From: Desulfomicrobium macestii
GTDB lineage: Bacteria; Desulfobacterota; Desulfovibrionia; Desulfovibrionales; Desulfomicrobiaceae
DNA length: 56,819 nucleotides
Direction of reading: 5' to 3'
Assembly: GCF_014873765.1 (NCBI RefSeq)
Contig: NZ_JADBGG010000030.1
Coordinates: 1 to 56,819 of the forward strand
Shown: piece by piece, positions 21,283-56,819 of the stretch
Numbering within the stretch: position 1 is the first letter of the stretch
How the letters are laid out: every line of letters begins with the position of its first letter
Made by a program: the position numbers and the translations under genes
Notes under the pieces: generated by a model
Database searches by the model: none
What the model saw: the letters and a program-made list of their open reading frames with translations, nothing else
Told to the model about the DNA's origin: nothing

Positions 21283-21729
21283 ATGAAGCAGATTTTTGAT
21301 GCAGCCGAGGATGTATGGGCCAAACGGAAGCAAGAAGCCTGGGAAACCCTAGGGGATACCATGACTAAGCTGCCCGTTCGTTATTGGGAGAAGAACATGC
21401 TCTTTTCCGGTGTGAGTAATGTCTGGTGGCGGAAAATAACCGGTGGATTTCCCGCGACTAAACATTCATCGGGAACACACCCTCTCTTTGTCCTGGGAGC
21501 GAAAGGGAATTATTGTTTCCAGGTCTGTCCTTGCTCAAGCTCTGGAAATATCGGGGCTCGCTTCATTCGCCGTGGATGTAAGCTTTTGCTGAGCGGCAAT
21601 GTTACGGACAGGGATTCCTTTCTTGTCGAGCGTTTTGCCTTTTCTCTGCCGATGAACAGTACTTTTTCCGACCAGCCTGGATTCAAGGGCAAAGTTCCGG
21701 AAATGTGCATTCACAGGAGTTGCAAATGA
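21283..21729 (+). CDS. Unknown small protein, first gene of the sigma/protease operon
   Basis: A 148-residue protein I do not recognise with certainty. The region from about residue 65 (THPLFVLGAKGNYCFQVCPC, then FIRRGCKLLLSGN) has the strand-turn-strand feel of PemK/MazF-like small barrels, but no catalytic set is clear. It is Cys-rich in the middle. The start at 21283 (MKQIFDAAEDVW) is chosen over 21184 because the longer N-terminus looks non-coding. It overlaps the sigma-like gene by ATGA, so the two are translated together, which argues that it belongs to the system. Confidence 0.6.
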   Translation: MKQIFDAAEDVWAKRKQEAWETLGDTMTKLPVRYWEKNMLFSGVSNVWWRKITGGFPATKHSSGTHPLFVLGAKGNYCFQVCPCSSSGNIGARFIRRGCKLLLSGNVTDRDSFLVERFAFSLPMNSTFSDQPGFKGKVPEMCIHRSCK

Positions 21730-22739: not shown

Positions 22740-22754
22740 GAGAAGAGGACAGAT

Positions 22755-23873: not shown

Positions 23874-25929
23874 ACGTCGGGATCTTGATTGTCTGAGTCA
23901 TGACCTGGAAAGAGGTGGCTCTGGTTATGCTTTGAACCCTCATCCGAATATCTGGGGTCGCCGTTGTTCTGCTGAAAGGCTGGAAGAATTGTTGCGAGCG
24001 GAAAAACTGGGTGATTCCCTGTGTGAGGCCTTGGTGGTGGCTCATCTGCTGTATCCGCAACGGACCCCCGCTTGGGCCAGACCATGGCTGCACCGGAATG
24101 CCTTTGGCGTTACAGGCGCGGATCTGGAGCTTCTCGAACGGGCGCAGTGGCGGGATTTTTTTGTGCCCGTTGCGGACGAACATTCCGGCTATCTCTGGAG
24201 ACTCCTGGTTGGCATAGGCAGTGATTTGCCCCTTGTAGCGACCGCAGGCGCAAAGGCGTTTGCGCTGGATTCTCTACGCGCATTGGAGGTGGTTAGCCGG
24301 CTTGTTCAGGAAAAATGGGAGGAGGGATGCTGCTTCGGGCTTGCTTCTCCAGGCGTGTCCGGTCCCATCATTTCTGGCCAGTCTCTCGGACTTCCCTGCT
24401 ATCTCGCAGCAGCGGCGTGTATTGAAGGCCTTCCTGATACTCAGATCCTTTCGACGGGCCAGCTTGACGAATTCGGCGCCGTACTACCCGTCAAGTACAT
24501 CCAAACAAAGGTCAATTCTGCCAGCTTTGGCTTCAAGCTTATCATCTATCCTCAGGGTTCCGACCCGCCCGAATCTCGTCTGGAGTGCGTTCCGGTAGCT
24601 CATGCCTGCGAGGCACTGGCGGTCATGGCCTGTTACCAACCGGGGATGGGGAACAAGATCGTCCAGGCCGAAAACGCGCTTCGCTCCGGGCGCGGACTGG
24701 CCAGGGAGATCTGTTCCTTTCAAAGTGGGATGGTCTCGTGGCTTATGCGAAATCGTCAGGCCATATCTGAAGTCGTCACGACCGACACTTCCCTTGCCGA
24801 ACTCGTCACCCAGCTTAAGCGTTGGTGCGATTCGACTCTTCAATGCGAGCCCGAGCTCGGGAGGGCGGTGCTGCAATGTCTTTCACTGGAGCTTGTAAAA
24901 AAAGTGGCGGTAGATGATGCGCTGCTTGCCTGGACCATCTGTGTTCTTCAGATGGATCGAATGAATCATACCGGCAGTCTTCCCGAATTTGAGGAGTGGA
25001 GGGCCCAGGCTGACGAACTGCGGCCGCGGATCGTTTCCACCCAAGATGCCGCAAGCCTCCTCGCGCTGCATTATGTTCAATCTGTTATCGGCGATAGGCA
25101 TAATCGCTACGTATTTTCTGTGGAACTTCCCGAGGATGGGGACGCGATGTTTGAGGTCGGAGCCATGGAGGAGACCTTCAGGCGCCATCAGGCCGGTGGG
25201 GGGAGGCGAGAAGACGGCCGTCTGGGCAGATACTACGGAACAATCGGGCAGAATTATGGTTTCTGCGGTCCCGACTTTCTTGGGGAAACCCTGCGTTATC
25301 TGGAGTTGGCCATTTCATGTTTTTGCGCTGATTCGCAGATGTCGGAGAAGGAGCGAAACCGGGATCTCCTCTATAAGGTGTTCGCATTGTCCTCTGCAGG
25401 AAGGACGGATGATGCCCTCGAGACCCTGAGCGGGATACCCGGGCTATGGATGCAAGGGCGGTGGAATCAGAGGGAGATGGATCAATACCAGATGCACGCG
25501 TTGCTGCGCGCCCATGTTGATTCTGGAAACGGAATGCGCACAGCCCTTCTGCAGGAGATTTCGGATTTATGGAGGTCGCAGAGAAAGCGTTCGCATCCTT
25601 GGCAACTGATAGCATATAACCTGGGCCTCCTTGAGTCTGACAAGGTGGCCTCGTATCATATGCTTTCCGAGTCTCTGTCCATATGTCTATCTCCGGATAC
25701 TGGGCCAACCATCAAGGTGATGGCCCTTTTGCCATTGGCGCAGCTCCATTCGGCCGGATACAGCCTGCCCGACATGGACGATCAGGTCAGGCGGGCCATT
25801 GTGCCTGTCTGCAGTAAGGATCTTTCAGGAGAACATTTCGCTTGCCTCATGCAGGCAAGGACCACAGAAGAGGTCTTGCGGATCGTGCAAAAGGAAAAGG
25901 CTCGTCTTTTCCCCTATTCATATCGATAG
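23860..25929 (+). CDS. Lon-type Ser/Lys protease domain with C-terminal helical repeats, no ATPase domain
   Basis: A 689-residue protein. Residues about 155-235 match the Lon (S16) proteolytic domain: SGQSLGLP with Ser175 as nucleophile, LSTGQLDEFGAVLPV matching the TGEIxxxGxVLPI strand, and YIQTKVNSA with Lys217. The Ser-Lys spacing of 42 is close to that of E. coli Lon (S679/K722). There is no Walker A/B or AAA+ region, and no SAVED domain is recognisable. From about residue 330 on the protein is helical and TPR-like. Residues 579-689 (HPWQLI, SPDTGPT, ending FPYSYR) resemble the end of the 50115-52574 protein. It is the last gene of the operon and probably the effector that cuts the anti-sigma-like neighbour when triggered. 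The trigger is unknown. Confidence 0.7.
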   Translation: MRRIERRDLDCLSHDLERGGSGYALNPHPNIWGRRCSAERLEELLRAEKLGDSLCEALVVAHLLYPQRTPAWARPWLHRNAFGVTGADLELLERAQWRDFFVPVADEHSGYLWRLLVGIGSDLPLVATAGAKAFALDSLRALEVVSRLVQEKWEEGCCFGLASPGVSGPIISGQSLGLPCYLAAAACIEGLPDTQILSTGQLDEFGAVLPVKYIQTKVNSASFGFKLIIYPQGSDPPESRLECVPVAHACEALAVMACYQPGMGNKIVQAENALRSGRGLAREICSFQSGMVSWLMRNRQAISEVVTTDTSLAELVTQLKRWCDSTLQCEPELGRAVLQCLSLELVKKVAVDDALLAWTICVLQMDRMNHTGSLPEFEEWRAQADELRPRIVSTQDAASLLALHYVQSVIGDRHNRYVFSVELPEDGDAMFEVGAMEETFRRHQAGGGRREDGRLGRYYGTIGQNYGFCGPDFLGETLRYLELAISCFCADSQMSEKERNRDLLYKVFALSSAGRTDDALETLSGIPGLWMQGRWNQREMDQYQMHALLRAHVDSGNGMRTALLQEISDLWRSQRKRSHPWQLIAYNLGLLESDKVASYHMLSESLSICLSPDTGPTIKVMALLPLAQLHSAGYSLPDMDDQVRRAIVPVCSKDLSGEHFACLMQARTTEEVLRIVQKEKARLFPYSYR

Positions 25930-32584: not shown

Positions 32585-34561
32585 TCTTATATCCCCTCGA
32601 ATCGGGTCATGCATTCAGAGACCAACAAGGAGGCATCTATGAACACCATGCAGCTGTCTTAATCCCCTCGAATCGGGTCATGCATTCAGAGCTACCTTGA
32701 GCAACAAGTGCAAGTTCCTGTATACGACTGTCTTAATCCCCTCGAATCGGGTCATGCATTCAGAGCCCGTCTGAAACATTGGCAATGTTTTTCCTCTCAT
32801 CGGTCTTAATCCCCTCGAATCGGGTCATGCATTCAGAGTCGGTATCCGTGATGACAAGCCAACGTTCGTGACGAGTCTTAATCCCCTCGAATCGGGTCAT
32901 GCATTCAGAGACGAGATGGGCGGCTATGCCCCGGCCTCACAATATGTCTTAATCCCCTCGAATCGGGTCATGCATTCAGAGGGCATGGTTTACGATATTG
33001 CATCAGGACGCTGTTACAGTCTTAATCCCCTCGAATCGGGTCATGCATTCAGAGAGATTCCGGCGCGAAGGTTAGCGTCCTGTTGACCACGTCTTAATCC
33101 CCTCGAATCGGGTCATGCATTCAGAGAAGAGAGTTTACGTCATGGCAAAGAAGAACAACGAAGTCTTAATCCCCTCGAATCGGGTCATGCATTCAGAGTT
33201 GATCTTCGAAACCTACCCCAACTCCAACGGCCTCGTCTTAATCCCCTCGAATCGGGTCATGCATTCAGAGGACTGCCGAGTTTTGCGGGAACTACCTTTC
33301 GAAAGGTGTCTTAATCCCCTCGAATCGGGTCATGCATTCAGAGCACGTTCGGTGGCATCTTGTCCGGGTACGTCGATCCGTCTTAATCCCCTCGAATCGG
33401 GTCATGCATTCAGAGCCTTGCCATCAACGCCAGCGTGCTGACAGGCGCCTTGTCTTAATCCCCTCGAATCGGGTCATGCATTCAGAGGCACAACGCCTTA
33501 ATTGGACGCATATCCCCGCCGTTAGTCTTAATCCCCTCGAATCGGGTCATGCATTCAGAGATGGACATAGGTGTCCGCAGTAAGGCCAGGGAGCTAGTCT
33601 TAATCCCCTCGAATCGGGTCATGCATTCAGAGCTGTCATTGTTGACATTGATAACGGCACGTCGCTGGTCTTAATCCCCTCGAATCGGGTCATGCATTCA
33701 GAGTTCCGGGCGTGGTGGTGGAGAGAGGTTGAGGAGAAGTCTTAATCCCCTCGAATCGGGTCATGCATTCAGAGCCGTCACAAAGGAGCTGTCGTAATGG
33801 CAAAAAGCAGTCTTAATCCCCTCGAATCGGGTCATGCATTCAGAGCACCTTCCGTCGCGTCGTCAACGGCTAGACGCGAGATGTCTTAATCCCCTCGAAT
33901 CGGGTCATGCATTCAGAGCAGGACGGCCGATCAAGGGACTAGAGGCAGTACTGAGTCTTAATCCCCTCGAATCGGGTCATGCATTCAGAGCGTGCCGGCC
34001 AGAAGCTGTACCTCGCTGTAGATCCGGTCTTAATCCCCTCGAATCGGGTCATGCATTCAGAGCGAGCGGTGGAATTCGCGGCAAGCAAGGACAGAAACGT
34101 CTTAATCCCCTCGAATCGGGTCATGCATTCAGAGTTTTCGGAAGAGCCATGCGCACCATGCAGCATGTACGTCTTAATCCCCTCGAATCGGGTCATGCAT
34201 TCAGAGACGATTCTAAAGAGACTGTTCCTGCATCTGCTATGTCTTAATCCCCTCGAATCGGGTCATGCATTCAGAGAGTAAACATGCTCCAACGTGGAAG
34301 CGAGAGCGGAAAGTCTTAATCCCCTCGAATCGGGTCATGCATTCAGAGGCTGGCGTGATGAAGTGCGGCTCGGCCAACGTAGAGGTCTTAATCCCCTCGA
34401 ATCGGGTCATGCATTCAGAGCTTAAACGCATGTTGAAGGCCGAAGGCTTCTCGTCTTAATCCCCTCGAATCGGGTCATGCATTCAGAGGGCGTTGGCTAT
34501 GCCTATTTGATAATAGGCTTTTCATGTCTTAATCCCCTCGAATCGGGTCATGCATTCAGAG
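32585..34561 (-). CRISPR. CRISPR array 1: 28 repeats, 27 spacers
   Basis: 36-nt repeats at a 70-74 nt period, with spacers of 32-38 nt. In the crRNA direction (minus strand) the repeat begins CTCTGAATGCATGACC and ends GAGGGGATTAAGAC. The leftmost repeat (32585-32620) has a degenerate end, marking it as the old, leader-distal end; the leader is on the right (34562-34787). Several spacers show phage gene starts in the plus orientation (32621-32655, 33127-33162, 33775-33809), so their crRNAs are antisense to mRNA. Five spacers hit the same sites as spacers of array 2. Long apparent reading frames here are repeat read-through, not genes. Confidence 0.98.
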
Positions 34562-34787
34562 TCTTGGGTCTCTGAGTTCAGGGTTTGCAAGGGTTGCGGG
34601 AGGCGCTCTCACGGATCCCCCCTAAAAAAGGGCCTCGGGAAATTTTGTGTGCCATCCAATGCGTACTTTTTATATACTAACCATCCAATTTTGCAACGAA
34701 AAACCGCTCTCACGTATCGATTTTCGCCGGGTGTGCAATATCAGGCGGATAGCAGATTATTCAAAAAACTACGGAGATGCGTGAGAG
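34562..34787 (-). promoter_or_regulatory. Leader of CRISPR array 1
   Basis: About 226 bp next to the youngest repeat, nearly identical in reverse orientation to the leader of array 2 (52717-52942). It contains three copies of a 12-bp motif, GATNCGTGAGAG (34606-34617, 34707-34718, 34776-34787, two of them inverted). It also has a run AAAAAAGGGCCTC and an AT-rich stretch with TATATAC. It should carry the array promoter and the integration recognition site for Cas1-Cas2. Confidence 0.85.
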
Positions 34788-34949
34788 ACTTTTTTCGGTG
34801 CGATTCACGCTGTGGCATCGGGAGTGCGCGCGGTTCACCTTCGATTGTTGCAAAACGGCAGTAGAACGTATTCACAGCAAACGTTCTGATACTCTTTTTT
34901 CAGGTTCACCTGCCGAGCCAGGTGAGCGCCGCAGATGTGATGCTTTGTC

Positions 34950-35228
34950 TCAATAATAACCGCTTGCTGCCATTTCCGGTTCCTGGCCCGCTCCGACCAG
35001 TTCGAATTGCGCCAGACATCCCTTGCATTGGCGGTAGAAGCGAACGCTATCCGTTTCATGATCGATGAGGCGGTCCAACTCGTCCTGAATTTTCAGAAGC
35101 TGCCTTTCGGTCAGGTTAGGGCATTCAAAGACGGATTTCTGTACACGCCGTCCGTAGCCCTGCAACAGTTTGGCCGCCTTGGTACGGAAACGGTCTTCGG
35201 TGATATCATAGCTGATCAGGTAGTACAT
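34950..35228 (-). CDS. cas2: CRISPR adaptation endonuclease-like protein Cas2
   Basis: A 92-residue protein beginning MYYLISYDITEDRFR, the ferredoxin-like first strand with the conserved Asp (YDI), then LLQGYGRRVQKSVFEC, as in Cas2. It forms the dimer core of the Cas1-Cas2 integrase. The start at 35228 overlaps the cas1 stop by one base (TGATG). It is followed by the array 1 leader. Confidence 0.95.
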   Translation of the reverse strand: MYYLISYDITEDRFRTKAAKLLQGYGRRVQKSVFECPNLTERQLLKIQDELDRLIDHETDSVRFYRQCKGCLAQFELVGAGQEPEMAASGYY

Positions 35229-36283
35229 CAGCGCACCTTGTCCCATGCGAAGGGCAGGTACATTTCGCTCTCGCCCATAATCCAGGAATTGAAGCGCCTT
35301 GCCTGAGCGAAGAGGATCTCCCTGTAGGAAGTTTTTTTGCCGTCCGCAGGATCTAGGACCCGCGTATTCATCCATGCGTCGTAGGCTTTTAGCAAGGCTC
35401 GCATCGTCGCGGGCTTCATTTCGACCGGGCGCCTTGCTTTGAGTTCCTCTTCATCAGCGAAGACTTTTTGATCAGATGGACGGTAAACAAAATTGTCCGG
35501 CGAGATTGACTTGCGGTTCAGCAGGCCGAGAACCAGGCGGTCTGCAATAAATGCACGCCATTCCTCCACAAGATCGCAAGCCAGAGAAGGCCGGCCATAG
35601 GACACTTCATGGAGGCTGCCGAGATAGGGGTCGAGACCCACGCGCTGGATGGCCGAAAGTACCTCGTTCGTCAGTACGGAATACACGAAGGACAGCAGGG
35701 CATTAACCGGGTCCGTCGGCGGACGTTTGACCCTGCCAGGGAAGGTGAAGTCAGGGTTGCGAAGCATGTCTGGAAATGCGCTGAAATAGATACGGCTTCC
35801 GTGTCCTTCGACCCCGCGTATGAAGTCAAGATCGGTCATGCCGGAGGGAAAGCCCTTCTCCAGCGCGCGGATGGCCGCTCCAGAAGCGAGAAGTGTGGGC
35901 TCCCCGAATTGTTGCCCCCTAAGGAGCAGGAGTCGGGCTTGGCTCCGCAGTTTGCCTTTGACAATGCTCTCGGCAACGGCTGCCTGCATCACCGGATCCG
36001 ACAACCTGAGGTATTGGGCCTTGCGTCGGAGGACCTGTTTGTGTTCATCAACACAGAGTCTGCCCTCGAAACGTCCGGTCGGTGTGAGCAGGACGGTTTC
36101 GATCCTGTTGCGAACGAGCGCGCGCAGCACGGCTCCGCTGAGGGACGTGTAGCCGATGAGGGTCAGCTGCTTGAGTCCGTCTAAAGATACTCTGTCGATG
36201 ACTTTTCCGTCACGCGTCAGGGCCAGGTTCGTTCCTTCCTTTTTGAGGAACGTCCCCGGTTCAAGCAGATATATTCGTTCCAC
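35228..36283 (-). CDS. cas1: CRISPR integrase Cas1
   Basis: A 351-residue Cas1 with the catalytic set Glu in GVEGHGSRIYF, His in SLHEVSYGRPSLACDLVEEW and Asp in the same segment. The GTG at 36283 (ERIYLLEPGTFLKKEG follows) is preferred over GTG 36295 because GGAGG lies five bases before it. It inserts new spacers at the leader end of the arrays. The neighbouring CAPP primase and TPR genes form an adaptation cassette with it. Confidence 0.95.
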   Translation of the reverse strand: MERIYLLEPGTFLKKEGTNLALTRDGKVIDRVSLDGLKQLTLIGYTSLSGAVLRALVRNRIETVLLTPTGRFEGRLCVDEHKQVLRRKAQYLRLSDPVMQAAVAESIVKGKLRSQARLLLLRGQQFGEPTLLASGAAIRALEKGFPSGMTDLDFIRGVEGHGSRIYFSAFPDMLRNPDFTFPGRVKRPPTDPVNALLSFVYSVLTNEVLSAIQRVGLDPYLGSLHEVSYGRPSLACDLVEEWRAFIADRLVLGLLNRKSISPDNFVYRPSDQKVFADEEELKARRPVEMKPATMRALLKAYDAWMNTRVLDPADGKKTSYREILFAQARRFNSWIMGESEMYLPFAWDKVR

Positions 36284-36329
36284 TATTGCCTCCACCTGTC
36301 AGGGAGTGCGCATTTGCGAACTCTTCGCA

Positions 36330-37943
36330 TCATGTCATGGCCTTGCCGGGCTCAGGCAGAAAACGGCCGACCAGTTCCAGACTTTGACGTAATTGGTCGA
36401 GAGCATCCTGAAGGTTGGAGACGTTTTCGGACTGTCCGCATCTGCCGCTTTGCCAGCCGTCAACAAACAGTAGCGGATGCCCGTAAGCCGCCCCTGGAGG
36501 AAAATCACAGAGATCGCGGCTGCTTTCGAGCAACGCGTGGATTTTTTTGCATCCCAGAGGGGTGCCGCGCAGACGCGAGATGCGGTAGTCAACGAGGTGC
36601 CGGTTGTATTCGGCCTGGTTGCCGAGCAGGGCGTGCAGAACGGCTCCCCGCCTGTCCAGAAATCCGAGGACACCGAACAGAACGCGCTCTTCTCGGACGG
36701 AGAGGGCGCGGCCTTCTCGACACAGGCTGAAGATGCCCGCAAGAAGCGGGCAGGCTGCCGAGATGGCGGCCAACTCGGGGTAGTCGTTTTTCCATCGCTT
36801 GAATGAAGGGTGCTCAACGACAGTGGCCTTGGGTGCGGCTTTCGCAGCGGACAGAGCGGCCACGGAGTTTATAGTCGCTTGCTCGAGTTTTTCCAGCTGC
36901 CTCCACGCATCTCCACGATCCCCCGGCAGAAAGCGGGAAGGTTTGCCGGAGAGGCGGTGAATACCGAGCGGCAGCTTGACCAGATTCCCAAGACCCTTGC
37001 CCGACAAGTGATCCTGCTTTGGAAACACCTCCAGAGTGAAGCATGGCAGGTCTTTTGCCAGCGAATTCGAAAAGTTATGCAATATGCTCCTGAGCTTTGC
37101 AGGGTCCACCGGGTCGTCGAAGGGAAACCAGAAATGGTAGCCCTTGGAACCGCTGAATTCGACGATGCATGATAGCCCCATGTCACCCGCCAGGGCTGGA
37201 ATTCGTTCCAGAATATAAGCGAGTTCCCGACGTACGGAGTCGCGTTGGGACGCAGGAAGAGATGGCTGGCGGAGATCTTTGCGCAGGTCTGCATCTATGA
37301 CACCTATCCGCACCCGGCCATCGGCCTGCATGAGATATATGCCGAATGTCCGGAGCCCCGAGAGGTGCTCGCGCAGATCCTGTTCCGTCATGGGACGCCT
37401 TACCGGCATGTACCCGCTTTTACCTTCCGCTTTGTCGACCCACTGACGGGCGAAGCAGTCCTCGCGGCCTCGGAATATTTCCATGAAGCGCGAAATGAGT
37501 ATTTTTTCTCGGTTCATGGTCACAAAGGAGGCGTCCGGAATTTCCGCTTCGCGTTCCCAGCCTTGGGGCTGCGTATGGAAAAGGGCGAGAAACTGCGGGG
37601 CTCGAACCCTGCATTGTGCGCGGAGGGTGGCAAGCCCAACGCTATCATTCATGGCCTGGAGGTAGTCCCTGTGCTCGTTCCACGCTTCCTCGGAATCGGG
37701 ATAATGTTCGTGGAGGTGATCGAATGCCTTTTCGGCAATGGCGATGTTTCCAGCGATCTGGGCGCAGGAGGCCCAGGACAGGAGTTGCTCGGGATTCAGA
37801 TGCTCAAACAGTTCCGTGCGGGAGAGTAAGGCTGTGGTTTTGTCGGGGTTATGGCCGGTGAGGACCTGCTGACGCAGATTGTCTAGCAGAAGGTCGTACT
37901 GGACGGCTCCTTGGGTTTGTTTTGGGATCGCGTTCACTGGCAT
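36330..37943 (-). CDS. CRISPR-associated primase-polymerase (CAPP, AEP superfamily)
   Basis: A protein of about 537 residues with an archaeo-eukaryotic primase core: VRIGVIDADLRKDLR (catalytic DxD), EFSGSKGYHFWFPF and GLGNLVKLPLGIHRLSG. The C-terminal part has spaced Cys residues (CPLLAGIFSLC, GCKKIH, DLCDFPPG, GRCGQ), suggesting a PriCT-like Fe-S domain. The first 120 residues are helical. Such primases are known beside cas1-cas2 in type III loci, where they are proposed to make DNA from captured fragments. The start is uncertain: ATG 37943 touches a G-run, and GTG 37937 has better spacing to it. It overlaps the TPR gene. Confidence 0.88.
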   Translation of the reverse strand: MPVNAIPKQTQGAVQYDLLLDNLRQQVLTGHNPDKTTALLSRTELFEHLNPEQLLSWASCAQIAGNIAIAEKAFDHLHEHYPDSEEAWNEHRDYLQAMNDSVGLATLRAQCRVRAPQFLALFHTQPQGWEREAEIPDASFVTMNREKILISRFMEIFRGREDCFARQWVDKAEGKSGYMPVRRPMTEQDLREHLSGLRTFGIYLMQADGRVRIGVIDADLRKDLRQPSLPASQRDSVRRELAYILERIPALAGDMGLSCIVEFSGSKGYHFWFPFDDPVDPAKLRSILHNFSNSLAKDLPCFTLEVFPKQDHLSGKGLGNLVKLPLGIHRLSGKPSRFLPGDRGDAWRQLEKLEQATINSVAALSAAKAAPKATVVEHPSFKRWKNDYPELAAISAACPLLAGIFSLCREGRALSVREERVLFGVLGFLDRRGAVLHALLGNQAEYNRHLVDYRISRLRGTPLGCKKIHALLESSRDLCDFPPGAAYGHPLLFVDGWQSGRCGQSENVSNLQDALDQLRQSLELVGRFLPEPGKAMT

Positions 37944-39364
37944 CCCCCCTCGCGCAATGCCTGGCGAAGCTTGGGGAGCCATGGGTAGCGTGGACGGTGG
38001 GCGGAGAGGTCGCGTTCGAAGCCGAGGGCCTTTTCCCTTTGTCCCGATCGCAGGGCGGCCACGGACTGCCAGAAAAGGCCGTCGGCGCATGGGGTGGAGT
38101 ACGCTTCCATGTGGAACGCCACGGCTTTTTCAGCAAAGGCGGCCACGTCGGCGAAGTTTCCCTGGTTGTAGGCGATGCGGGCCAGACGGGTGAGACCCTT
38201 GTGGCGTCCCCGCCGGTCGCGCTCACAACAAGCCAGGAGGATGCGTCGAGCTTCCTCGATGCGGCCAAGGGCGACGAGGCAGTCAGCTTCGGTCCAACGC
38301 ACGTAGGGGCGACGAGCCTTCTGGGGGATGCGTTCAATAGCCTGCAGTCCCTGCTCCGCATTGCCCATGGCCAAGTGGCAGCGTCCGCTCAGTTCGTGAA
38401 CATAGTCTCCATCCGTCGGGTTGGTGAACAACGCCGCAGCGTCCAGAGCTTTCAGTGCCTCTTCGAAGCGCCCAAGTGCATGCAGGGCCTTGCCCTCTGC
38501 GAAATGCTTGTGCTCGTTTTTCAGGTAGGAGGTCCGGGCGTCCTCTTCGATTACGATCCTGACATGTTCGAGAGCAGTCGCAACTTGTCCTTCCTGGAGC
38601 ATGCACGAGGCAAGGGCGTATCTTGCCTTTACGGCATTTTTGCGTTCCTGGTGGCGGCTCAGACGCGTCTCCGGGGGATATTCATCCCAGTTGCGCACGG
38701 CCTGGGCCAGCAGGGGCAGGGCTTTTTCGGGCTTTCTGTCGAAGTCCTTGAAGAGTCTGCCTTCGCGATAGAACGGCGTGACCCGGTCGGGCAGGATGGA
38801 CTGGGCCTTGCGGAAATGTTCGTGGGCCTCCTGCAGTCGGGTTCTCTTTTCCTGGCCAGGAAGAATGATCTCCTTGGCGTTTGCGGCCTGCAGACTGCTC
38901 ATGAGCGTGTACCCGAGGGACGACCGGTAGCGAAAATTTTCAGGGTCGCGCTGGACGCATATTCGCAACTCGGCCAGGGCTTGGTCGAAGCGCTTGAGCT
39001 GGCCGAGGACGAACCCCAGGCTGGAACGGATCTCCATGTCCAGGCCATGGGTAATCAGGGACGGTTCGTGATCTTCGATGGGGTAGAAAAGATCCAGGAT
39101 TTCCTGCCAGCGGTTTTCGGCCTGAAGGCTACCGATCTCTGCCAGGACCCGGTCACGGAGCTTGCATGCCTGTTCCGCACCGCCAAAGCTGTCTGCAAGT
39201 GCTGCAAAGGGATCGACAACAGCCCCAATCGCGTCCGGGCTCAGGTCAATGGGCAGCGCTCCCTGCTGCTGGAGTTCTGTGGACGACACCGGGACGGCCT
39301 GGGGCTTCGGTGTTTCTTTTTCGGCGGACGGCAGAGAGATGATGCGGACGGCTTGGCTGTTCAT
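37934..39364 (-). CDS. TPR-repeat protein of the adaptation cassette
   Basis: A 476-residue protein of tandem tetratricopeptide repeats from about residue 85 to the end, e.g. LGQLKRFDQALAELRICV, ALHALGRFEEALKALDAA and LVALGRIEEARRILL. A Pro/Gln-rich linker forms residues 15-45. It has no enzyme motif. An AGGAGG precedes the ATG. It overlaps the primase gene by about 10 bases, so it probably works as a scaffold or regulator of the CAPP/Cas1-Cas2 complex. Confidence 0.85.
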   Translation of the reverse strand: MNSQAVRIISLPSAEKETPKPQAVPVSSTELQQQGALPIDLSPDAIGAVVDPFAALADSFGGAEQACKLRDRVLAEIGSLQAENRWQEILDLFYPIEDHEPSLITHGLDMEIRSSLGFVLGQLKRFDQALAELRICVQRDPENFRYRSSLGYTLMSSLQAANAKEIILPGQEKRTRLQEAHEHFRKAQSILPDRVTPFYREGRLFKDFDRKPEKALPLLAQAVRNWDEYPPETRLSRHQERKNAVKARYALASCMLQEGQVATALEHVRIVIEEDARTSYLKNEHKHFAEGKALHALGRFEEALKALDAAALFTNPTDGDYVHELSGRCHLAMGNAEQGLQAIERIPQKARRPYVRWTEADCLVALGRIEEARRILLACCERDRRGRHKGLTRLARIAYNQGNFADVAAFAEKAVAFHMEAYSTPCADGLFWQSVAALRSGQREKALGFERDLSAHRPRYPWLPKLRQALREGGCQ

Positions 39365-44677: not shown

Positions 44678-46618
44678 TCACTCCCCCTTGTCCGCAACGA
44701 GCAGGTCCTGGCACACTTTGAGTACCTGACAATAATATGCTGCGTCAGCGCTAATCCCTTTCTCCATCTCCAGGACAACGTCCTTCCAGCGTTGCCAGAT
44801 GCTTTCCGGCCGGTCAGTCCGTTGCCGTTCCAGATACGCGAGTGCATTTTTGCTATTAAGGCGCGTCAACTCACGGACCCTGGAGATCTGGCTGGCAGAA
44901 AGTTGACTGGCCTTGGCTTTTTCCCAAAGGGCGAAGCCTTCTTGGGCGAAGTTTTTGATCTTCTTCATTTTTTTGGGCCGTGGAGGATCAGGGAACAGAG
45001 CCTCGGCAATGCCAGGATGAGGCATGACCGCTCCGAGACCTCTCTCGCGACCTTTTCCAACTCCTGCCACCAGGATTTTTTCCAGTTCTGTAACAGGTTT
45101 ACTTACACGGAATACCGACCCGGTATTGATCACCGCGACCGCTCCCAAGAGTCCTTTGTGTACAGTGCTGTTCCATCCAAACAGTGTCGAGATTGCTCCA
45201 CTTGAGTCCTCGACTTCTCCAAAACCATGCTCATGAGCCAGTTTCTTTATGATCTGCGCAAATGGTTTGTTCATTTCGTCGTCGGGAACTAACAAAGGAG
45301 ACTGAACAATAAAAATATTTGCCGGTCTTTTGAACAAGTCGATGGATTCCATAGGCATGCTGTACGCTGAAAGCAGGCCGCCGCCTCGAACAGATCTAGA
45401 TTTTCCCAAGGTGACAAACGGGTTGTCTTCCAAACTCTGCTTGAGCAATTCTGCCGCCGATTCCGGCATGGAGACTATGCCCGTGAACGTCATTGGAGCC
45501 ATGGCTTCGATTGTGTAGAGATTACGTTTTTGGCCGCCTTTTCTGTCTCCATTGATGACCCCGTGTGCGGTAATCACCCTGGGCATATCTGATGACTTCC
45601 AAAGACGTACCTTTCCAGAATTGTACAAAAGAGCGCCGTCGGCAGATTTCAAGGGAGAATTCGGCGGAATCTTGTCCCATTCATAAGGACGAATCATCTC
45701 GTCTTCAAAATGGAACATGCCCTGATTGTCTGTCAGTTTGCTCAGTTTGTGTGTAAAAGAAACTTTGATGGAAAGTGATCCTTCGGAATCAGTGGGATTG
45801 AGTGGCCACGCCCTGAAATTGACATCTTCATAACAAGCTGTGGCGACTTCTGTGGAAACATTATTCAGACGATGCAGAATCGCGCCTTGGACGGCGCTGG
45901 CCGGGATCGTAAAACCGGACTTGATCATGTTGTTTTGTATAATGGGAGTTTCAGGCACACAGATTGGATTCTGAGCCCTAAACACAAGCTTGAGCATTAC
46001 CGGACGGTTTGAATCCGTGCGAAGTTGAATTTTTTGTGGGTGGAAAGCCGGGATAGACTTCCAGTCAGTGACTTTGGCCAATGTCCGCAATATTTGGCCG
46101 GGAGTTTTGTTTTCTGCTGGTATGGAGACAAAGCACGCACCTGCACCACGATTCCTGTTTCCGCCAACCGCAAAAATCGACAGGAGGCCAAGTTTCAAGA
46201 GTTGCACATATTCATCTGTCAAACCAGTTCGGAAATGAATACTGCCCTTGAACTCCGTTCCTGTAGATACGGCTTCGCTTGTGCGCAGTGAGCCCTGATC
46301 TGCAGTACCGAATTCATTAAGTGCTGTTCGCGAGATGTCGATGACCGATGCTTTGTCCGCCACTGCGTCATCAAGATGAAAAAGAGCCCCTCCACTGAGT
46401 CCCTCGGCACCGAAGAGCGTGTCCAGAATAGTTTCGGGAATGAACTCGTCCACAAGATTTTCGAGGTTCTCACGCATAAGCCCTTTCAGGTGTGATGCCG
46501 GAATAATGACATTCCGTTCAACATCCCTGGGCAAAAGTGAATCGGTCAGGCTTGTGCCCAAACCACACGCCGGTTCACCATCGGAAGTGAGTTTTATGGT
46601 GAAGTTGATTGTGCTCAT
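44678..46618 (-). CDS. Cas7-Cas5-Cas11 triple fusion
   Basis: A 646-residue protein. Residues 1 to about 180 are Cas7-like (VIIPASHLKGLMRENLENL, IFAVGGNRNRGAGAC). Residues about 190-530 are a second, Cas5-like RAMP (FTIPASAVQGAILHRLN, VTLGKSRSVRGGGLLSAY, GVGKGRERGLGAVMP). Residues about 540-646 are a Lys-rich all-helical tail with Cas11-like character. The order matches the Cas7-Cas5-Cas11 fusion described for the III-D variant of cyanobacteria. No separate small-subunit gene exists in the operon, which supports the Cas11 reading. The start overlaps the cas10 stop. Confidence 0.8.
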   Translation of the reverse strand: MSTINFTIKLTSDGEPACGLGTSLTDSLLPRDVERNVIIPASHLKGLMRENLENLVDEFIPETILDTLFGAEGLSGGALFHLDDAVADKASVIDISRTALNEFGTADQGSLRTSEAVSTGTEFKGSIHFRTGLTDEYVQLLKLGLLSIFAVGGNRNRGAGACFVSIPAENKTPGQILRTLAKVTDWKSIPAFHPQKIQLRTDSNRPVMLKLVFRAQNPICVPETPIIQNNMIKSGFTIPASAVQGAILHRLNNVSTEVATACYEDVNFRAWPLNPTDSEGSLSIKVSFTHKLSKLTDNQGMFHFEDEMIRPYEWDKIPPNSPLKSADGALLYNSGKVRLWKSSDMPRVITAHGVINGDRKGGQKRNLYTIEAMAPMTFTGIVSMPESAAELLKQSLEDNPFVTLGKSRSVRGGGLLSAYSMPMESIDLFKRPANIFIVQSPLLVPDDEMNKPFAQIIKKLAHEHGFGEVEDSSGAISTLFGWNSTVHKGLLGAVAVINTGSVFRVSKPVTELEKILVAGVGKGRERGLGAVMPHPGIAEALFPDPPRPKKMKKIKNFAQEGFALWEKAKASQLSASQISRVRELTRLNSKNALAYLERQRTDRPESIWQRWKDVVLEMEKGISADAAYYCQVLKVCQDLLVADKGE

Positions 46619-48144
46619 CAGACGGTCTCCTTTTGCATGCGGCCTTCTTCTTCAAGAAGCATGAGGGCATCGATGATGTTGGTCGACTGCTCTTTTTTGT
46701 CGGGGGAGAGAAACCATGAGTTGCCTGGCTTTCGAGCGTCAAATTCTTTGAGGTCCTTAAAAATTGTATCCCCATGGTTTTTCTTGCACTCTGCGTAAAA
46801 TGCCAGACGTTCGGCATAAGGTTTTGAGAGGGCGGGTAAAATTTTGTGTCGCACAGTTGTCGGCACCCGTTCGTATTTTCGGGCAACCGACTCAATGTCG
46901 TGATATTCATCCATAGTACACGGTCGGCAGGTCAACTTGACGATGCGGTCCAATTCTTCGTCTTCAAACAGCAATTCACGTTGCCTTTTTGCTGCAGGGC
47001 TATCGACTAGGGTGTCTGTGATCTGTTCCCAATCGATACAGGCAGGCGAGGCCTCGTTCTTGATTCCCTTTTTGCGGCCTCGTGTTTTTGCACTCGCCAA
47101 TAACGTTTCAGAGTATGGAATCGCCGTATGTAGCGGCAGACTGACAGGTGCGTAGAGAACTCCTGCAGTAATAGTCAGTCTACCATTGGTCGCAGGCCAA
47201 AGGTGCGGAGATTCTGCGCTGGTCAGTTCAAAAATTCGCATTGCTTCTTTCACAAAGGTCATAGCGTACGAGCAGTGACAGAGAACAACGATGTCATCCC
47301 CCCCGACCAGCAATGGACGGACAGGGAGGACGACATCCTTCCCTGTCTTCACCGTTTCCTTGCCCTGGTCTGAATCGGCCCATTCCGAAACCACTCGTTG
47401 AATGGCCGCTGTCGCGGCTTTGCACGTACAAAGATCCAGGGCGTAACTCATTTCACGTATCCATCGCTGCAGTTCCTGGGTGGATAGCCTCTTTGGATTG
47501 TCCTTGCTTACTTGGTGTCTGAACTGCATTCCCATGTCGTTTCCATCCATGGAAATGATTGCCCAGCGGTTGCGATTGCCCAAGGCTTTTGCGCCAGCCA
47601 AGCCGTCCAGTCCGTCGTCGTCATCGACATTATGGAAAAATTCCAGATTTTCATTAGGAATTCCAGGGAGCAAGATATCCTTGAGAAGCTTGTTCTCGAA
47701 ATGGCGGTAAATCTTTTCCCCCCGTTCGTAGAGTCGTTTATTAAGCACCGGATGGGGTCTGTCGTCTGAAACCGGGTACAAACCACTTATCGGGCAAGGG
47801 CGACCATTGTTCATGACTGGAACAAAAGAGAAGATCTCGTCAGCATGTTGGGATGCCTGGCTGAAATCTTCATTTTCGCCAAACCGTATATCGAGCCCAA
47901 TACCGTGCGCCTTTGCTATGATCTTTGACTTCAGATCGTTCAAAATTTGTTCGTCTTTGCAGAGAAAAGTTCCCTTGCCGCCTCCAGCGAAAATGAGTTG
48001 CGTATTTGCATTGTGAAAGCCAGGCATGGTTATCTTGTCAAAACGATCAATGAGGGCAGAGCCGCCAATAATATATTTCAATTTGGGGATTTTAAATATA
48101 AATGACTGAATTCCTTTTACATCATAACATAGATATCTCTGCAT
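46618..48144 (-). CDS. cas10: Cas10-type large subunit with GGDD cyclase motif, no HD domain
   Basis: A 508-residue Cas10. It begins YDVKGIQSFIFK, the palm-domain opening, and has LLVGGDDIVVLCHCSYA, the intact GGDD motif for cyclic oligoadenylate synthesis. The usual N-terminal HD DNase domain (about 100-150 residues) is absent, making this a short Cas10. A second DD-rich loop (NVDDDDGLDGLAG) lies in the palm insertion. The ribosome site is GGAGGG. With Csx1 and the APE2256-type CARF protein nearby, signalling rather than DNA cutting should be the main output of Cas10 here. Confidence 0.92.
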   Translation of the reverse strand: MQRYLCYDVKGIQSFIFKIPKLKYIIGGSALIDRFDKITMPGFHNANTQLIFAGGGKGTFLCKDEQILNDLKSKIIAKAHGIGLDIRFGENEDFSQASQHADEIFSFVPVMNNGRPCPISGLYPVSDDRPHPVLNKRLYERGEKIYRHFENKLLKDILLPGIPNENLEFFHNVDDDDGLDGLAGAKALGNRNRWAIISMDGNDMGMQFRHQVSKDNPKRLSTQELQRWIREMSYALDLCTCKAATAAIQRVVSEWADSDQGKETVKTGKDVVLPVRPLLVGGDDIVVLCHCSYAMTFVKEAMRIFELTSAESPHLWPATNGRLTITAGVLYAPVSLPLHTAIPYSETLLASAKTRGRKKGIKNEASPACIDWEQITDTLVDSPAAKRQRELLFEDEELDRIVKLTCRPCTMDEYHDIESVARKYERVPTTVRHKILPALSKPYAERLAFYAECKKNHGDTIFKDLKEFDARKPGNSWFLSPDKKEQSTNIIDALMLLEEEGRMQKETV

Positions 48145-48167: not shown

Positions 48168-49100
48168 TTAATTCACTCGATATTCCATCTGCCCCAGCCC
48201 GAAAGTCGTCTGCTTGCCCACGCGCAGGATGCGTCCCATCTCCAGCAGTGGCAGGAATTCTTTTATTCTTCCCTTGTAGGAACAATAGCCGGTCAGGCCG
48301 CCGAGGAGCATCTCTTGGTCCTGGCGGCTGGAAAAACGCTTGTTCTCGAGCCAGGCCAGTCGGCTGTGTTGAATTGTCACCGCTTCGGCACGATCCACGA
48401 GGCCTCTGTAATCAAGGTCCGGTTCGCCGTTGCCGAAACTGGAAAACAGGCCCGACATTCTGCGGAGCAGGCTCCTGATCAGGACGTGGAAGGGGAGGTC
48501 GCCAGCGAGACGATTGTCTCTCTTGATCCGAAGCGGGGTCGCCCATGAGACCTCAACTCCATGCGCATCCGTAAGGACGGTGTCCGGAAGTGATTCAAAG
48601 TTGAGATCCCGGACAATCGGTTCCGCCGTCATGCGTCCATCACGCCCATCATAGAGAGCGCGGCCGTCCATTTTCATCTGCTGTATGACGTATCTGGCTC
48701 GTGGCCCTTCCTCGCCCCTGCCGATCCCTGACTGCCCCATCTTTTCGAAGGCGTAGATGAAGTAGGGGAGATAGTGGTTTGCTTGGCCGAACAGTAGCAG
48801 GGAAAAGTCGAAGGCTTCGCCTCGTTCGTAATGGCGCTTTCGGTCCAACGGAGGCGATATACAGTAGGGATGCTGGGCTGTCCCGTGAAGCTCTGGAGAC
48901 ATGCCGCTCTGCGGTTCGAACATGGTGGGGTACAGACAGCGCGTTCGCAGCAGGCAAGACCCGCATTCGCGGGTGGTCATGGAGCAGCTGACGCTCTTTA
49001 GCGCCCAGCCGAATCCCCCGCGAAAGGTTGATCCCTTGAACTCCGGCAGGACTGCGTTCTCCTTGAATATGGCCCGAAAATCGTAGCGCCCGTAAAGCAT
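48168..49100 (-). CDS. cas6: CRISPR pre-crRNA endoribonuclease Cas6
   Basis: A 310-residue Cas6 of the DUF2276-like branch. It has a Cys cluster CSMTTRECGSCLLRTRCLYP, a FRGGFGWALK motif near the N-terminus and the C-terminal glycine-rich loop LRVGKQTTFGLGQM. It should cut both arrays' transcripts within the repeat. The start at 49100 (MLYGRYDF) has GGAGG at five bases. It is the first gene of the effector operon, so the operon promoter lies just upstream, in 49101-49400. Confidence 0.88.
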   Translation of the reverse strand: MLYGRYDFRAIFKENAVLPEFKGSTFRGGFGWALKSVSCSMTTRECGSCLLRTRCLYPTMFEPQSGMSPELHGTAQHPYCISPPLDRKRHYERGEAFDFSLLLFGQANHYLPYFIYAFEKMGQSGIGRGEEGPRARYVIQQMKMDGRALYDGRDGRMTAEPIVRDLNFESLPDTVLTDAHGVEVSWATPLRIKRDNRLAGDLPFHVLIRSLLRRMSGLFSSFGNGEPDLDYRGLVDRAEAVTIQHSRLAWLENKRFSSRQDQEMLLGGLTGYCSYKGRIKEFLPLLEMGRILRVGKQTTFGLGQMEYRVN

Positions 49101-50114
49101 TTTAACCTCCATCGGAGAATATAACGGGAGGAAGTCGGTCTTTTTCAATATTGCATCGAAAAATTTCAAAACGCCTTGGAATTTTATTTTGAGCTAGTAT
49201 CAGACCAGGAATGTATGACACAAGCAGCGTGTGATTATATGGTTCACCTTTCAGATGAGGGATGTCTGACAAGGGCTTGTCATGTTTTGCGCTCCCGCAG
49301 CCTTACTGGATAAACACCTATGGAGAGTCTTTAAGACGGCAAAGCCCCTGCAAAGAATTATATACGCCTGATAGAATAAAAATGAACCGCTGTCATGCTT
49401 GACTTTAATATCAATAATCAGATTGATTCCAATCTGGGACTCTGTTTATGATTGCATAACAGGAAAACAGGGGGTCAATTTTGGACTGCTTCCTGTGTCA
49501 CGATTCCGTGTCATGACAATTTCCCATCATCCAGTTCTTTTTGTGTTTCACTTTTCGTCCTGTTTGCTTCGTGTCATCTTTCATGACAACAGTGACCATT
49601 TTCCGGCCGCATTGCCGGATGCCTTCGCGCCTGGCCTTTCGGCGGGCTTTCCTGCTCAATTCCTTGCCGTCAATCTGCATGTCTTTTAATCCTTTCCTGC
49701 TTGAAGATTCCCGGTAGATGGTACTGGACCCGGGTTTTCGTGGCCGTGTTGATTCATTGAGGGGATTTCAGTCGACCGCTTCGAGAAACGTCGCGTTGTA
49801 TTCTGGAACGTGTTTCATAAAAAGGATTACGGAATCGGCGGGCTTTTTTTCAAGCAAACGATCATTTTGGGCGCGGAATATTTGGCCGGCAACCAGTCCT
49901 TGCTGCAATCCTGCTTGAAAAAATTGACTATGTTCCCGCTAAGATGTGGAAGTCAGCAGAAATGGCAGCAATTGGGGCATTCTGAAGCTTGCCGAATTTA
50001 ACTTTTCTCTTGTGTCTGACATTGTCGGTATGGCAGGCACCTCATTGAAGGCATAAAGAGAAGTACAATACTCCCTGAAATCTCGACCTCGCACGTAGAC
50101 AGGAAACAACGCAA
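49101..50114. other. Divergent intergenic region between cas operon and DUF3800-like gene
   Basis: About 1 kb containing the divergent promoters of cas6 (minus) and the 50115 gene (plus). It has no confident protein gene apart from the weak frame at 49498-49680. Repeated short elements (GTGTCATGACAAT and similar) occur around 49495-49590. I cannot define the promoters precisely. Confidence 0.5.
49498..49680 (-). CDS. Possible small basic protein
   Basis: A 60-codon frame beginning MQIDGKELSRKARRKARREG and rich in Lys/Arg, with two Cys. An AGGA lies upstream of the ATG at a long spacing. Basic peptides of this size beside CRISPR loci can be anti-toxin-like or nucleic-acid binding, but no family is recognised and it may be chance. 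Confidence 0.25.
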   Translation of the reverse strand: MQIDGKELSRKARRKARREGIRQCGRKMVTVVMKDDTKQTGRKVKHKKNWMMGNCHDTES

Positions 50115-52574: not shown

Positions 52575-52716
52575 CAACGGATGAAGTCGGGCTTGGATAT
52601 ATGGAGTGCCTTCGCAGCGGTTTCTTCCTTGGATGGCATAAGATGACGTGCTTTCGGGGGCGTGAAGTGCAGTCTTGCCTTCGCGTCCAACCGGGATGGT
52701 CAAGATCGTGGACATT

Positions 52717-52942
52717 CTCTCACGCATCTCCGTAGTTTTTTGAAAAACCTGCTATCCGCCTGATATTGCACACTCGGTGAAAATCGATACGTGAGAGAGG
52801 TTTTTCGTTGCAAAATTGGATGGTTAGTATATAAATGACTTGTATTGAATGGCATTCAAAATTTCCCGAGGCCCTTTTTTAGGGGTGATCCGTGAGAGCG
52901 CCTCCGGCAACCCTTGCAAACCCTAACCTCAGCGGCCCCAGG
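52717..52942 (+). promoter_or_regulatory. Leader of CRISPR array 2
   Basis: Nearly identical to the array 1 leader but in the opposite orientation. It ends at the first repeat (52943). It holds GATNCGTGAGAG-type copies at 52717-52728 (inverted), 52786-52797 and 52887-52898. The last lies 45 bp before the first repeat, as its counterpart does in array 1. Differences between the two leaders are single bases and a short divergent stretch around 52833-52850. Confidence 0.85.
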
Positions 52943-55900
52943 CTCTGAATGAATGACCCGATTTGAGGGGATTAAGACTTATAGTAGCCTGTCCCTTGTC
53001 TGCCTTGGTCCGCACTCTGAATGAATGACCCGATTTGAGGGGATTAAGACTTCTTGAGTGACGAATACGAAACAGAAGACGAGCAGCTCTGAATGAATGA
53101 CCCGATTTGAGGGGATTAAGACATAAAGATAACCAATGCCGAACGCGAATGCCGTTCTCTGAATGAATGACCCGATTTGAGGGGATTAAGACTTCTCAAC
53201 GAGCTGGTCCGCTTCGTCCCCGAACAGCTCTGAATGAATGACCCGATTTGAGGGGATTAAGACTCTCGGGCGGACTTGTCTTCGACGAACCATCCGGCTC
53301 TCTGAATGAATGACCCGATTTGAGGGGATTAAGACGCGTTGCGCTTGCCTGTATTGGCTCGTTTGTTTCGCTCTGAATGAATGACCCGATTTGAGGGGAT
53401 TAAGACGTCTTTGTCACGGGCATGATGAGCGCCAGCGTAATCTCTGAATGAATGACCCGATTTGAGGGGATTAAGACCTTTACTCTTGCGCTTGCTTGCG
53501 TCGCGTGACGATCTCTGAATGAATGACCCGATTTGAGGGGATTAAGACGGCTGGGTCTGTGCGTTCTGTGTGCGTCTGGACATGGCTCTGAATGAATGAC
53601 CCGATTTGAGGGGATTAAGACAAATCGAGCATCTCCAAGAATTCGCGTGCGTTCATACTCTGAATGAATGACCCGATTTGAGGGGATTAAGACTTTGTGT
53701 GCTGCCTTTTGGCCAAAGCTTTTCAAGTTCCTCTGAATGAATGACCCGATTTGAGGGGATTAAGACCTCCTGAAGGACCAGCGCCAGCTTCTGGCCGGCA
53801 CTCTGAATGAATGACCCGATTTGAGGGGATTAAGACGGATCGACGTACCCAGCCAGGATGCCGCCGAACGTCTCTGAATGAATGACCCGATTTGAGGGGA
53901 TTAAGACGCCGCACGGACGCCGGAAGGTCGATCGTCGGGCGCACTCTGAATGAATGACCCGATTTGAGGGGATTAAGACTCAATGTCAACAATGACAGCG
54001 TGTCGGCCATACTTGCTCTGAATGAATGACCCGATTTGAGGGGATTAAGACCTGGCACTGCCTCGTAGTTCTCAGGTGTAGATACCGCCTCTGAATGAAT
54101 GACCCGATTTGAGGGGATTAAGACCCGCTGCGCTTTATTTCTTGCCTTTCTTCTCGAAAGCTCTGAATGAATGACCCGATTTGAGGGGATTAAGACGAAG
54201 AACTTTGCGCGCTTGACACGCAGAACCAGTAGACTCTGAATGAATGACCCGATTTGAATGAATGACCCGATTTGAGGGGATTAAGACTTGACGGGCTTGG
54301 CTACAGGCTTAGCTACGGGCTTGCTCTGAATGAATGACCCGATTTGAGGGGATTAAGACGCCTTCCGCTCAACGCTCATAAAAAAAGGCGCTGGACTCTG
54401 AATGAATGACCCGATTTGAGGGGATTAAGACGTCGGCAGGATCGCCGGTCCAGCATTTGACAAACTTGCTCTGAATGAATGACCCGATTTGAGGGGATTA
54501 AGACGTGGGTCGTGATGAGCAAACTGACCTTCTTGCCGGTCAACTCTGAATGAATGACCCGATTTGAGGGGATTAAGACAAAAACTTGACGTTCGCCTCG
54601 ACCCACAGGACGTATCTCTGAATGAATGACCCGATTTGAGGGGATTAAGACGGGGCCAGGGGCTGCGTTTCGCGGCTTTCGGCCTTGCTCTGAATGAATG
54701 ACCCGATTTGAGGGGATTAAGACACAGAGCAGACCGCAGAGACACTAACACCGATTTTTCTTCTCTGAATGAATGACCCGATTTGAGGGGATTAAGACCT
54801 GATCGTCGGCAACCAGCGGAATGCACCAGTCAGCTCTGAATGAATGACCCGATTTGAGGGGATTAAGACTGCTGCGTGACGGCAATCCTCACGCGGTTGG
54901 AGAGGCTCTGAATGAATGACCCGATTTGAGGGGATTAAGACTTGCCCACGAAGAAGCACGGCTGGCCGCTTACCGGATCCTCTGAATGAATGACCCGATT
55001 TGAGGGGATTAAGACTTGTGCCGTCTGCGGCCTTGCGGCCTTGTGTTCATCCTCTGAATGAATGACCCGATTTGAGGGGATTAAGACGTTACTTCGCTGG
55101 TAGTGTTCTTTTCAATGGTCATACTCTGAATGAATGACCCGATTTGAGGGGATTAAGACTTTTCGGCCAGCGTCATGAATTCGTACCTATCCAGCTCTGA
55201 ATGAATGACCCGATTTGAGGGGATTAAGACATAGCTCGAAATTCAGTGGGAGAGCTTCGATACCTTCTCTGAATGAATGACCCGATTTGAGGGGATTAAG
55301 ACTGGATCGCCGTTGACGCCCAGGATTATCGCGTCGCGCTCTGAATGAATGACCCGATTTGAGGGGATTAAGACGGTGTCAGGCGATTACTCGCCGAACA
55401 CCCAACGCTTCTCTGAATGAATGACCCGATTTGAGGGGATTAAGACATGAATTCGTACCGATTCAGTTCGTAGGGATCCTCCCTCTGAATGAATGACCCG
55501 ATTTGAGGGGATTAAGACTTCGGGGTATGGAAGGGAGGGGATTATGGACACGTCTCTGAATGAATGACCCGATTTGAGGGGATTAAGACTCGTCGGCGAC
55601 CAGCGGAAGCCGCCCGTCAGCACGCTCTGAATGAATGACCCGATTTGAGGGGATTAAGACGATGAAGTGCAGATATTCTGCAGTGTCGCACTGCGCTCTC
55701 TGAATGAATGACCCGATTTGAGGGGATTAAGACTCTGGCGTTCACGGGTAACGGTGGACTGGGTGGACTCCTCTGAATGAATGACCCGATTTGAGGGGAT
55801 TAAGACGTCACAAGTCGTTTTATCGTATGCTTCAACGTAGAACTCTGAATGAATGACCCGATTTGAGGGGATTAAGACTTCAGCCCTTCGTGCCACAGCA

Positions 55901-56676
55901 CGGCGTCATCACCTTGCTCTGAATGAATGACCCGATTTGAGGGGATTAAGACTCGTCGGCGACCAGCGGAAGCCGCCCGTCAGCACGCTCTGAATGAATG
56001 ACCCGATTTGAGGGGATTAAGACCCTGCTTTGCGAAGCAAGCTTTTGATCGCATTCACGCTCTGAATGAATGACCCGATTTGAGGGGATTAAGACATGTG
56101 ATGCGTTATCAGGCTTGTGCCATTATCATGAACTCTGAATGAATGACCCGATTTGAGGGGATTAAGACCCACACTAGCGTTAGTTGGTTGGACTACCAGA
56201 ACAATCTCTGAATGAATGACCCGATTTGAGGGGATTAAGACTACGTCAGCCGGCGGGGCTTCTGCAGCCGGGTCATGCTCTGAATGAATGACCCGATTTG
56301 AGGGGATTAAGACGTATTATCTTATGCATCGCGACCCTCCCAGTGCTCAACTCTGAATGAATGACCCGATTTGAGGGGATTAAGACCAGCACAACCACCT
56401 GCCCGCCGCGTTCGGGGTGAACCTCTGAATGAATGACCCGATTTGAGGGGATTAAGACGGTTTGGTCAAGCAGGATGCCAACAGCGATGGCGCACTCTGA
56501 ATGCATGACCCGATTTGAGGGGATTAAGACAAGAAGAGGCCGTTCGAGTTGGGGTATGTGGTCAGAACTCTGAATGCATGACCCGATTTTAGGGGATTAA
56601 GACATCAGCCGGTCCACCTCGGCGCGGGCGGCAAGATATGCTCTGAATCCATGACCCGATTCGAGGGGATTAAGAT
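52943..56676 (+). CRISPR. CRISPR array 2: 52 repeats, 51 spacers
   Basis: 36-nt repeats in crRNA orientation on the plus strand, beginning CTCTGAATGAATGACC and ending GAGGGGATTAAGAC. They differ from array 1 at two positions (A for C at position 10, T for C at position 22). The last three repeats drift: 56495 and 56568 carry the array 1 base C at position 10, and 56641 has several changes and the C at position 22. Spacers are 34-39 nt. The spacer at 55590-55624 is repeated exactly at 55953-55987. One repeat (54234-54287) is 54 nt long. Many spacers read as antisense gene ends. Confidence 0.98.
54234..54287 (+). repeat. Aberrant 54-nt CRISPR repeat with internal 18-nt duplication
   Basis: Within array 2 this repeat contains the segment AATGAATGACCCGATTTG twice in tandem, giving 54 instead of 36 nt. 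Flanking spacers are normal. It could change Cas6 folding or processing at this position. Confidence 0.9.
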
Positions 56677-56724
56677 TGATGCTATGCGTCACAAACGAAG
56701 TGCCATTCGCCCTCTGGTGGTTGG

Positions 56725-56819
56725 TGTGACTGGGCACCCTAATAGCGCCACCGATGGGCACCTTAATGACGCCAGCAAACATGAGAGATTTTCGCTCGGA
56801 CGACCTCGTCTGGTTATGT
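56725..56819. mobile_element. Possible IS21-family element end
   Basis: After a TGTGAC start, two similar 20-bp repeats occur, TGGGCACCCTAATAGCGCCA (56731-56750) and TGGGCACCTTAATGACGCCA (56755-56774). Multiple direct repeats beginning TGGGCACC... are typical of IS21 termini. Only the edge is in the window and no transposase is seen, so the call is tentative. Confidence 0.4.

Follow-up and report, generated by a model that had tools for sequence, protein, structure and literature searches.

According to the passages of the CRISPRDetect paper that deal with the subject (PMC4869251, citing Yosef et al. 2012), mutations in a CRISPR repeat are copied into new repeats at spacer acquisition. For other systems, the corresponding part of PMC6895254 describes how, after leader-proximal integration, gap-filling repair duplicates the repeat faithfully, and in a section of PMC8211822 the CRISPR-associated primase-polymerase (CAPP) is proposed to copy the repeat strands at integration. 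Here we analyse a locus of the bacterium Desulfomicrobium macestii in which the repeats of one array retain a layered record of two substitutions. The window, that is, the whole stretch of DNA analysed (56,819 nt), is an entire contig (NZ_JADBGG010000030.1). It contains two arrays, array 1 and array 2 (table 1), with repeats and spacers, homologous leaders and a cas1-cas2 pair, as is found in arrays that share one adaptation module.

Table 1. Features of the CRISPR locus; repeat forms are given as the bases at positions 10 and 22 of the repeat, and the repeats of array 2 are numbered from the leader.
Feature	Coordinates	Strand	Description	Basis
Array 1	32585-34561	-	28 repeats, C10/C22 in 28/28	
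Array 1 leader	34562-34788	-	homologous to array 2 leader	
cas2	34950-35375	-		TIGR01573, 59.2 bits (cut-off 24.5)
cas1	35228-36295	-		TIGR00287, 217.6 bits (cut-off 71.7)
CAPP	36330-38090	-	CRISPR-associated primase-polymerase type A1	NF040561, 631.3 bits (cut-off 200)
Cas10-like protein	46618-48144	-	below cut-offs	TIGR02578, 26.9 bits (cut-off 170); TIGR02577, 24.6 bits (cut-off 79.4)
cas6	48168-49169	-		PF10040, 62.5 bits (cut-off 25)
Array 2 leader	52715-52942	+	homologous to array 1 leader	
R1-R49, array 2	52943-56458	+	A10/T22 in all 49, derived form	repeat alignment
R19	54234-54287	+	54-nt repeat, exact 18-nt internal tandem duplication; also A10/T22	
R50	56495-56530	+	C10/T22, intermediate form	repeat alignment
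R51	56568-56603	+	C10/T22, private G23T	repeat alignment
R52	56641-56676	+	C10/C22 (the array 1 bases), private G9C and C36T	repeat alignment

Besides the proteins listed in table 1, two more CRISPR-associated proteins are recognized above the cut-offs (TIGR02221 and TIGR02619), and RAMP models are matched with low E-values and under the curated cut-offs (TIGR03986, 118.7 bits against 161.35; TIGR02581, 75.6 bits against 108.05). Judged from these protein matches, the locus appears to be type III-like. Array 1 adjoins cas2. Array 2 is found past cas6 and past a protein of 819 residues that matches no Pfam family at E 0.001. With the Cas10-like protein of the window as the query, a search run without a positive control gave no match in seven relatives. 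A TPR-like protein (37934-39364) is encoded next to CAPP and cas1-cas2, and the pair at 36330-39364 has homologues in stretches of three other genomes (G018, G020 and G056). Three adjacent genes (21705, 22755 and 23761, spanning 21705-25929) likewise match no Pfam family at E 0.001; the cas1 regions of the same three genomes hold homologues of all three in an unchanged order, and a CRISPR-associated cassette is possible.

A preliminary description of this DNA had proposed that the two arrays have a common origin and that array 2 grew from its leader end. The leaders bear out both points. They are identical at 207 of 228 aligned positions (score 346, the maximum of 50 shuffles being 24), a homology that is observed directly and identifies the arrays as paralogues, and both carry CGTGAGAG at -153 and -52, with its inverse near -224. 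As the homologous leader of array 2 precedes 52943, the young end of the array is there, and R52 is the oldest surviving unit. The reversed orientation, with the A/T end as the oldest, is ruled out by the presence of this array 1-like leader. All 80 repeats (28 of array 1 and 52 of array 2) were aligned; their start-to-start spacing is 68-75 nt except at R19, and 27 of the 28 array 1 repeats are identical, R28 (32585-32620) having an altered 3' end. The same description had set a mostly A10/T22 array 2 against a C/C array 1, which the alignment finds in 49/52 and 28/28 repeats, respectively; it had also listed C10 as kept at 56495, 56568 and 56641 and C22 at 56641 alone, correctly as to both coordinates and positions.

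Read from the old end, the series in array 2 runs C/C, C/T, C/T and then 49 times A/T. The nesting of these states, ordered along the array, is plain in the alignment, and it follows that T22 arose first and A10 second. The C10/C22 and C10/T22 variants are confined to the distal end of the 52 repeats, and the probability of three substituted repeats falling exactly at the last three places is 4.5e-5. No further copies of the repeat were found outside arrays 1 and 2 in the 4.50-Mb assembly of the same genome with an exact 24-nt core or with the whole repeat at up to three mismatches, scans that would miss more decayed copies such as R28 of array 1.

A repeat search of the family (22 genomes) gave matches in G019 and G020. 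All 15 matches in the former and all 44 in the latter are C10/C22, one of the G020 matches having two changes at positions 30-31; the last G020 repeat carries private changes, and four decayed repeat-like copies beside the matches in these genomes are likewise C10/C22. Extending the search to the order, with the leader used alongside the repeat (348 genomes), added G009, a member of the same genus, whose nine repeats are five bases off that of array 1 and all carry C10 together with T22. At the class level (348 genomes, the same number as for the order) the matches were limited to the genome of the window itself (G000), G009, G019 and G020, and an exact repeat scan of genome contigs yielded matches in G019 and G009 only. 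A weak match in G057 from the order-level search (E 4.6e-4) was dropped, as the stretch concerned (L038) has no array and no repeat within 12 mismatches.

Cas1 matches at E <= 1e-60 occur in 10 of the 348 genomes, including that of D. macestii itself. A k-mer screen of nine cas1-region stretches from seven of these genomes, which were short in several cases and cover arrays near cas1 only (others elsewhere being possible), found arrays in two genomes, G056 and G037. The repeats of G037 show no apparent relationship and were not considered further. The more distant G056 has two arrays, whose repeat can be aligned over the 3' half, with T22 in both. Without gaps, the 5' half reads A at position 10 in one array and G in the other, and this half is too divergent to trust; the repeat reading A10, in which seven of the first 14 bases differ, was left out of the position 10 count.

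Identity to the window's Cas6 is 73% in G009 and 57-58% in G019 and G020, and identity to its Cas1 is 62% in the latter two; no Cas1 was found in G009 at E 1e-60. The G009 leader scores 41 and 36 against the leaders of the window, and those of G019 and G020 score 22-23, which is under the maximum of 28 from 200 shuffles of the array 1-G020 pair. On account of these identities and leader scores, arrays 1 and 2 appear to have separated from each other more recently than from the arrays of G009, G019 and G020. We also considered the G009 array as an orthologue of array 2, which would favour an ancestral T22, and rejected this since synteny does not support it: the G009 array adjoins homologues of genes 27799, 30065 and 31313, and a homologue of 50115 or cas6 was not found on its 4.6-kb contig.

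A repeat of exactly the R50 form (C10/T22) was also encountered in a viral contig, IMGVR_UViG_3300028549_002037 (hereafter L029), where positions 5209-5315, at the contig end, comprise this repeat, a 36-nt spacer and a second repeat altered by G9C (as in R52) and G23C. The contig contains reading frames that look portal-like and terminase-like on inspection, and the frame before the repeat breaks off at the very point past which that of a 40%-identical relative goes on. A search with the spacer found it in L029 only. Either a phage mini-array or a chimeric assembly join at the spacer could account for the end of L029.

For the preliminary description, the telling comparison was with relatives, among which the A/T double form might have proved ancestral; none of G009, G019 and G020 has it. 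Compared with the bases at the distal end of array 2, position 10 is directly seen to be C in all three of these close relatives, and position 22 is split between C and T. Parsimony on the close arrays needs one step with ancestral C at position 10 and four with ancestral A, and on this comparison A10 is almost certainly derived. At position 22 (array 1, array 2, G009 and G020), ancestral C needs two steps and T three under either placing of G009 and G020, and the addition of G056 leads to a tie of three against three, so the argument for a C22 founder is carried by R52 itself. Such a founder, favoured by one step among the close arrays and tied once G056 is included, is partly supported, and T22 probably, but not certainly, arose within array 2. 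Of the earlier proposal that the ancestor was of the array 1 type, the part concerning C10 therefore stands and that concerning C22 is less secure; the proposed spread of A10 from the leader end agrees with the nested distal-end states and with C10 being ancestral in the close arrays.

We consider it quite probable that arrays 1 and 2 come from a single leader-plus-repeat unit of the C10/C22 form and that the changes in array 2 spread by copying at its leader end. The leader-proximal repeat would be copied at each spacer addition, each array evolving through its own such repeat. In array 2, this repeat would have changed from C22 to T once R52 had been left behind and from C10 to A after R50, with all later repeats inheriting both changes; R50-R52 would be remnants of older copies with a few private mutations. 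Both changes spare the CCC and GGGG runs and the last 8 nt of the repeat, which we take to be the crRNA handle. Two changes per 36 nt are not above the 3.3 expected from the divergence of the leaders (P = 0.34 for two or fewer), so selection need not be invoked and both changes may be neutral. The folding of the repeat forms is weak and not better than that of shuffles. Of the 51 intervals, the first three contain both substitutions and the remaining 48 contain none (P = 0.0035 under an even clock), and array 2 is thus not an even record; this suggests that its tail is older per unit, either because middle units would have been lost or because recent growth would have been fast.

Within array 2, C22 hangs on a single repeat, R52, which has two other mutations. 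As for T22, it is present in all nine G009 repeats, in L029 and in the two arrays of G056, and across the wider family it may be the more ancient of the two bases. The founder of array 2 could accordingly have been C10/T22, as in G009 and L029, in which case only the change from C10 to A would have spread and the C22 of R52 would be a private change coincident with the base of array 1. The equal step numbers obtained with G056 as the outgroup speak for this alternative, as do the two other private changes, which indicate that R52 has been mutating. However, it is one step worse among the close arrays, and it requires T22C to be among three private changes in R52, for which the chance is 2.8 to 4.9%; we regard it as unlikely.

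Two further explanations bear on R50-R52 together. Arrays 1 and 2 reside in one genome and have their leaders and nearly all repeat bases in common, so that the distal repeats of array 2 might have been rewritten from array 1 by recombination or gene conversion. Yet R50 and R51 are mosaics combining C10 with T22, a form seen in no array 1 repeat, and the units at R50-R52 have no spacer in common with array 1: spacer A2_50 resembles A1_19 only partly and in a shifted position, and A2_51 is absent from the best 15 pairs listed. Conversion would need at least two short tracts limited to the old end, and we find it highly improbable. That end repeats decay is evident from the private changes in R28 of array 1, the last G020 repeat, R51 and R52. 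It is scarcely credible, though, that chance decay led the end repeats of array 2 onto array 1 bases, as four of their seven differences from the array 2 consensus are toward the array 1 base (P = 3.9e-6 for at least four of seven; P = 0.0033 with the inherited C10 taken as one event, i.e. two of five) and an identical C10 stands in three adjacent repeats. Descent from one C10/C22 unit with copying at the leader end is hence the reading that we retain.

In the normal repeat, the unit duplicated in R19 is bounded by two copies of TGA (positions 4-6 and 22-24), the second of which exists only in the T22 form, and slippage between the two copies is therefore the likely cause of the duplication. 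As R1-R18 lack it, the duplication arose after the addition of R18, or else R19 is a poor template.

The spacers of the two arrays are unique except for one exact pair among 78, the identical 35-nt spacers A2_37 (55590-55624) and A2_42 (55953-55987), five units apart; A2_26 is related to them in a shifted position. Ten spacer pairs of arrays 1 and 2 score more than 13 (eight when A2_37 and A2_42 are counted once), all in the same orientation, and both orientations are present among pairs tied at 13. Read on the strand opposite the crRNA, some similar spacers still encode a similar peptide, and the similar spacers are consistent with antisense targeting of related genes. A more specific idea, that spacers are antisense to gene starts with a Shine-Dalgarno sequence and ATG, was rejected: four such cases lie opposite the crRNA strand and three on it, among 139 distinct spacers (27 from array 1, 50 from array 2, 42 from G020, 12 from G019 and eight from G009, those of the relatives being 28-45 nt and taken between exact repeats only). 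For protospacers, the whole arrays were compared with phage records: array 2 had no match, and array 1 had a single weak one of 28 nt (E 0.6). Two degenerate spacer patterns had no match in viral contigs, and one of them also had none in the genome itself outside array 2. From 44 nt past R52, a dispersed sequence (56721-56819) runs off the contig; it has seven more matches in the genome, several of them at contig ends, and is perhaps an insertion sequence, at which older units of array 2 may have been lost.

Among described loci, the type III CAPP loci in the portion of PMC8211822 devoted to them resemble the present one in the adjacency of CAPP, cas1 and cas2 and in the presence of multiple arrays whose leader is conserved (in M. 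piezophila); they differ in that, in the present locus, the matches of the effector proteins to type III models stay under the curated cut-offs. It could be speculated that at every acquisition the leader repeat is copied by CAPP itself, that the layered variants record its errors and that the two early substitutions are the sign of a separate phase in the history of the array, an extension we hold to be doubtful. With 75 repeats free of substitutions, the visible error rate is bounded at about 1.1e-3 per nt.

The likeness is closest to the process outlined in the relevant passages of PMC4869251, in that a substitution in the leader-end repeat is passed on to later repeats and distal repeats keep earlier forms along with private mutations. 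What sets array 2 apart from the cases treated there is that two successive substitutions are layered and that a paralogous array with a homologous leader serves as an internal reference, which makes it a clean natural case of CRISPR repeat evolution through a single leader-end copy. Such repeats can provide relative dates, here two substitutions during the earliest three acquisitions that survive and none over the following 48, and they call for caution with a consensus repeat, which may mask an earlier state of the array. The layered repeats are real and well explained, and they reflect ordinary, expected behaviour and not a new mechanism: array 2 is an unusually clear case of the already published copying of repeat mutations.
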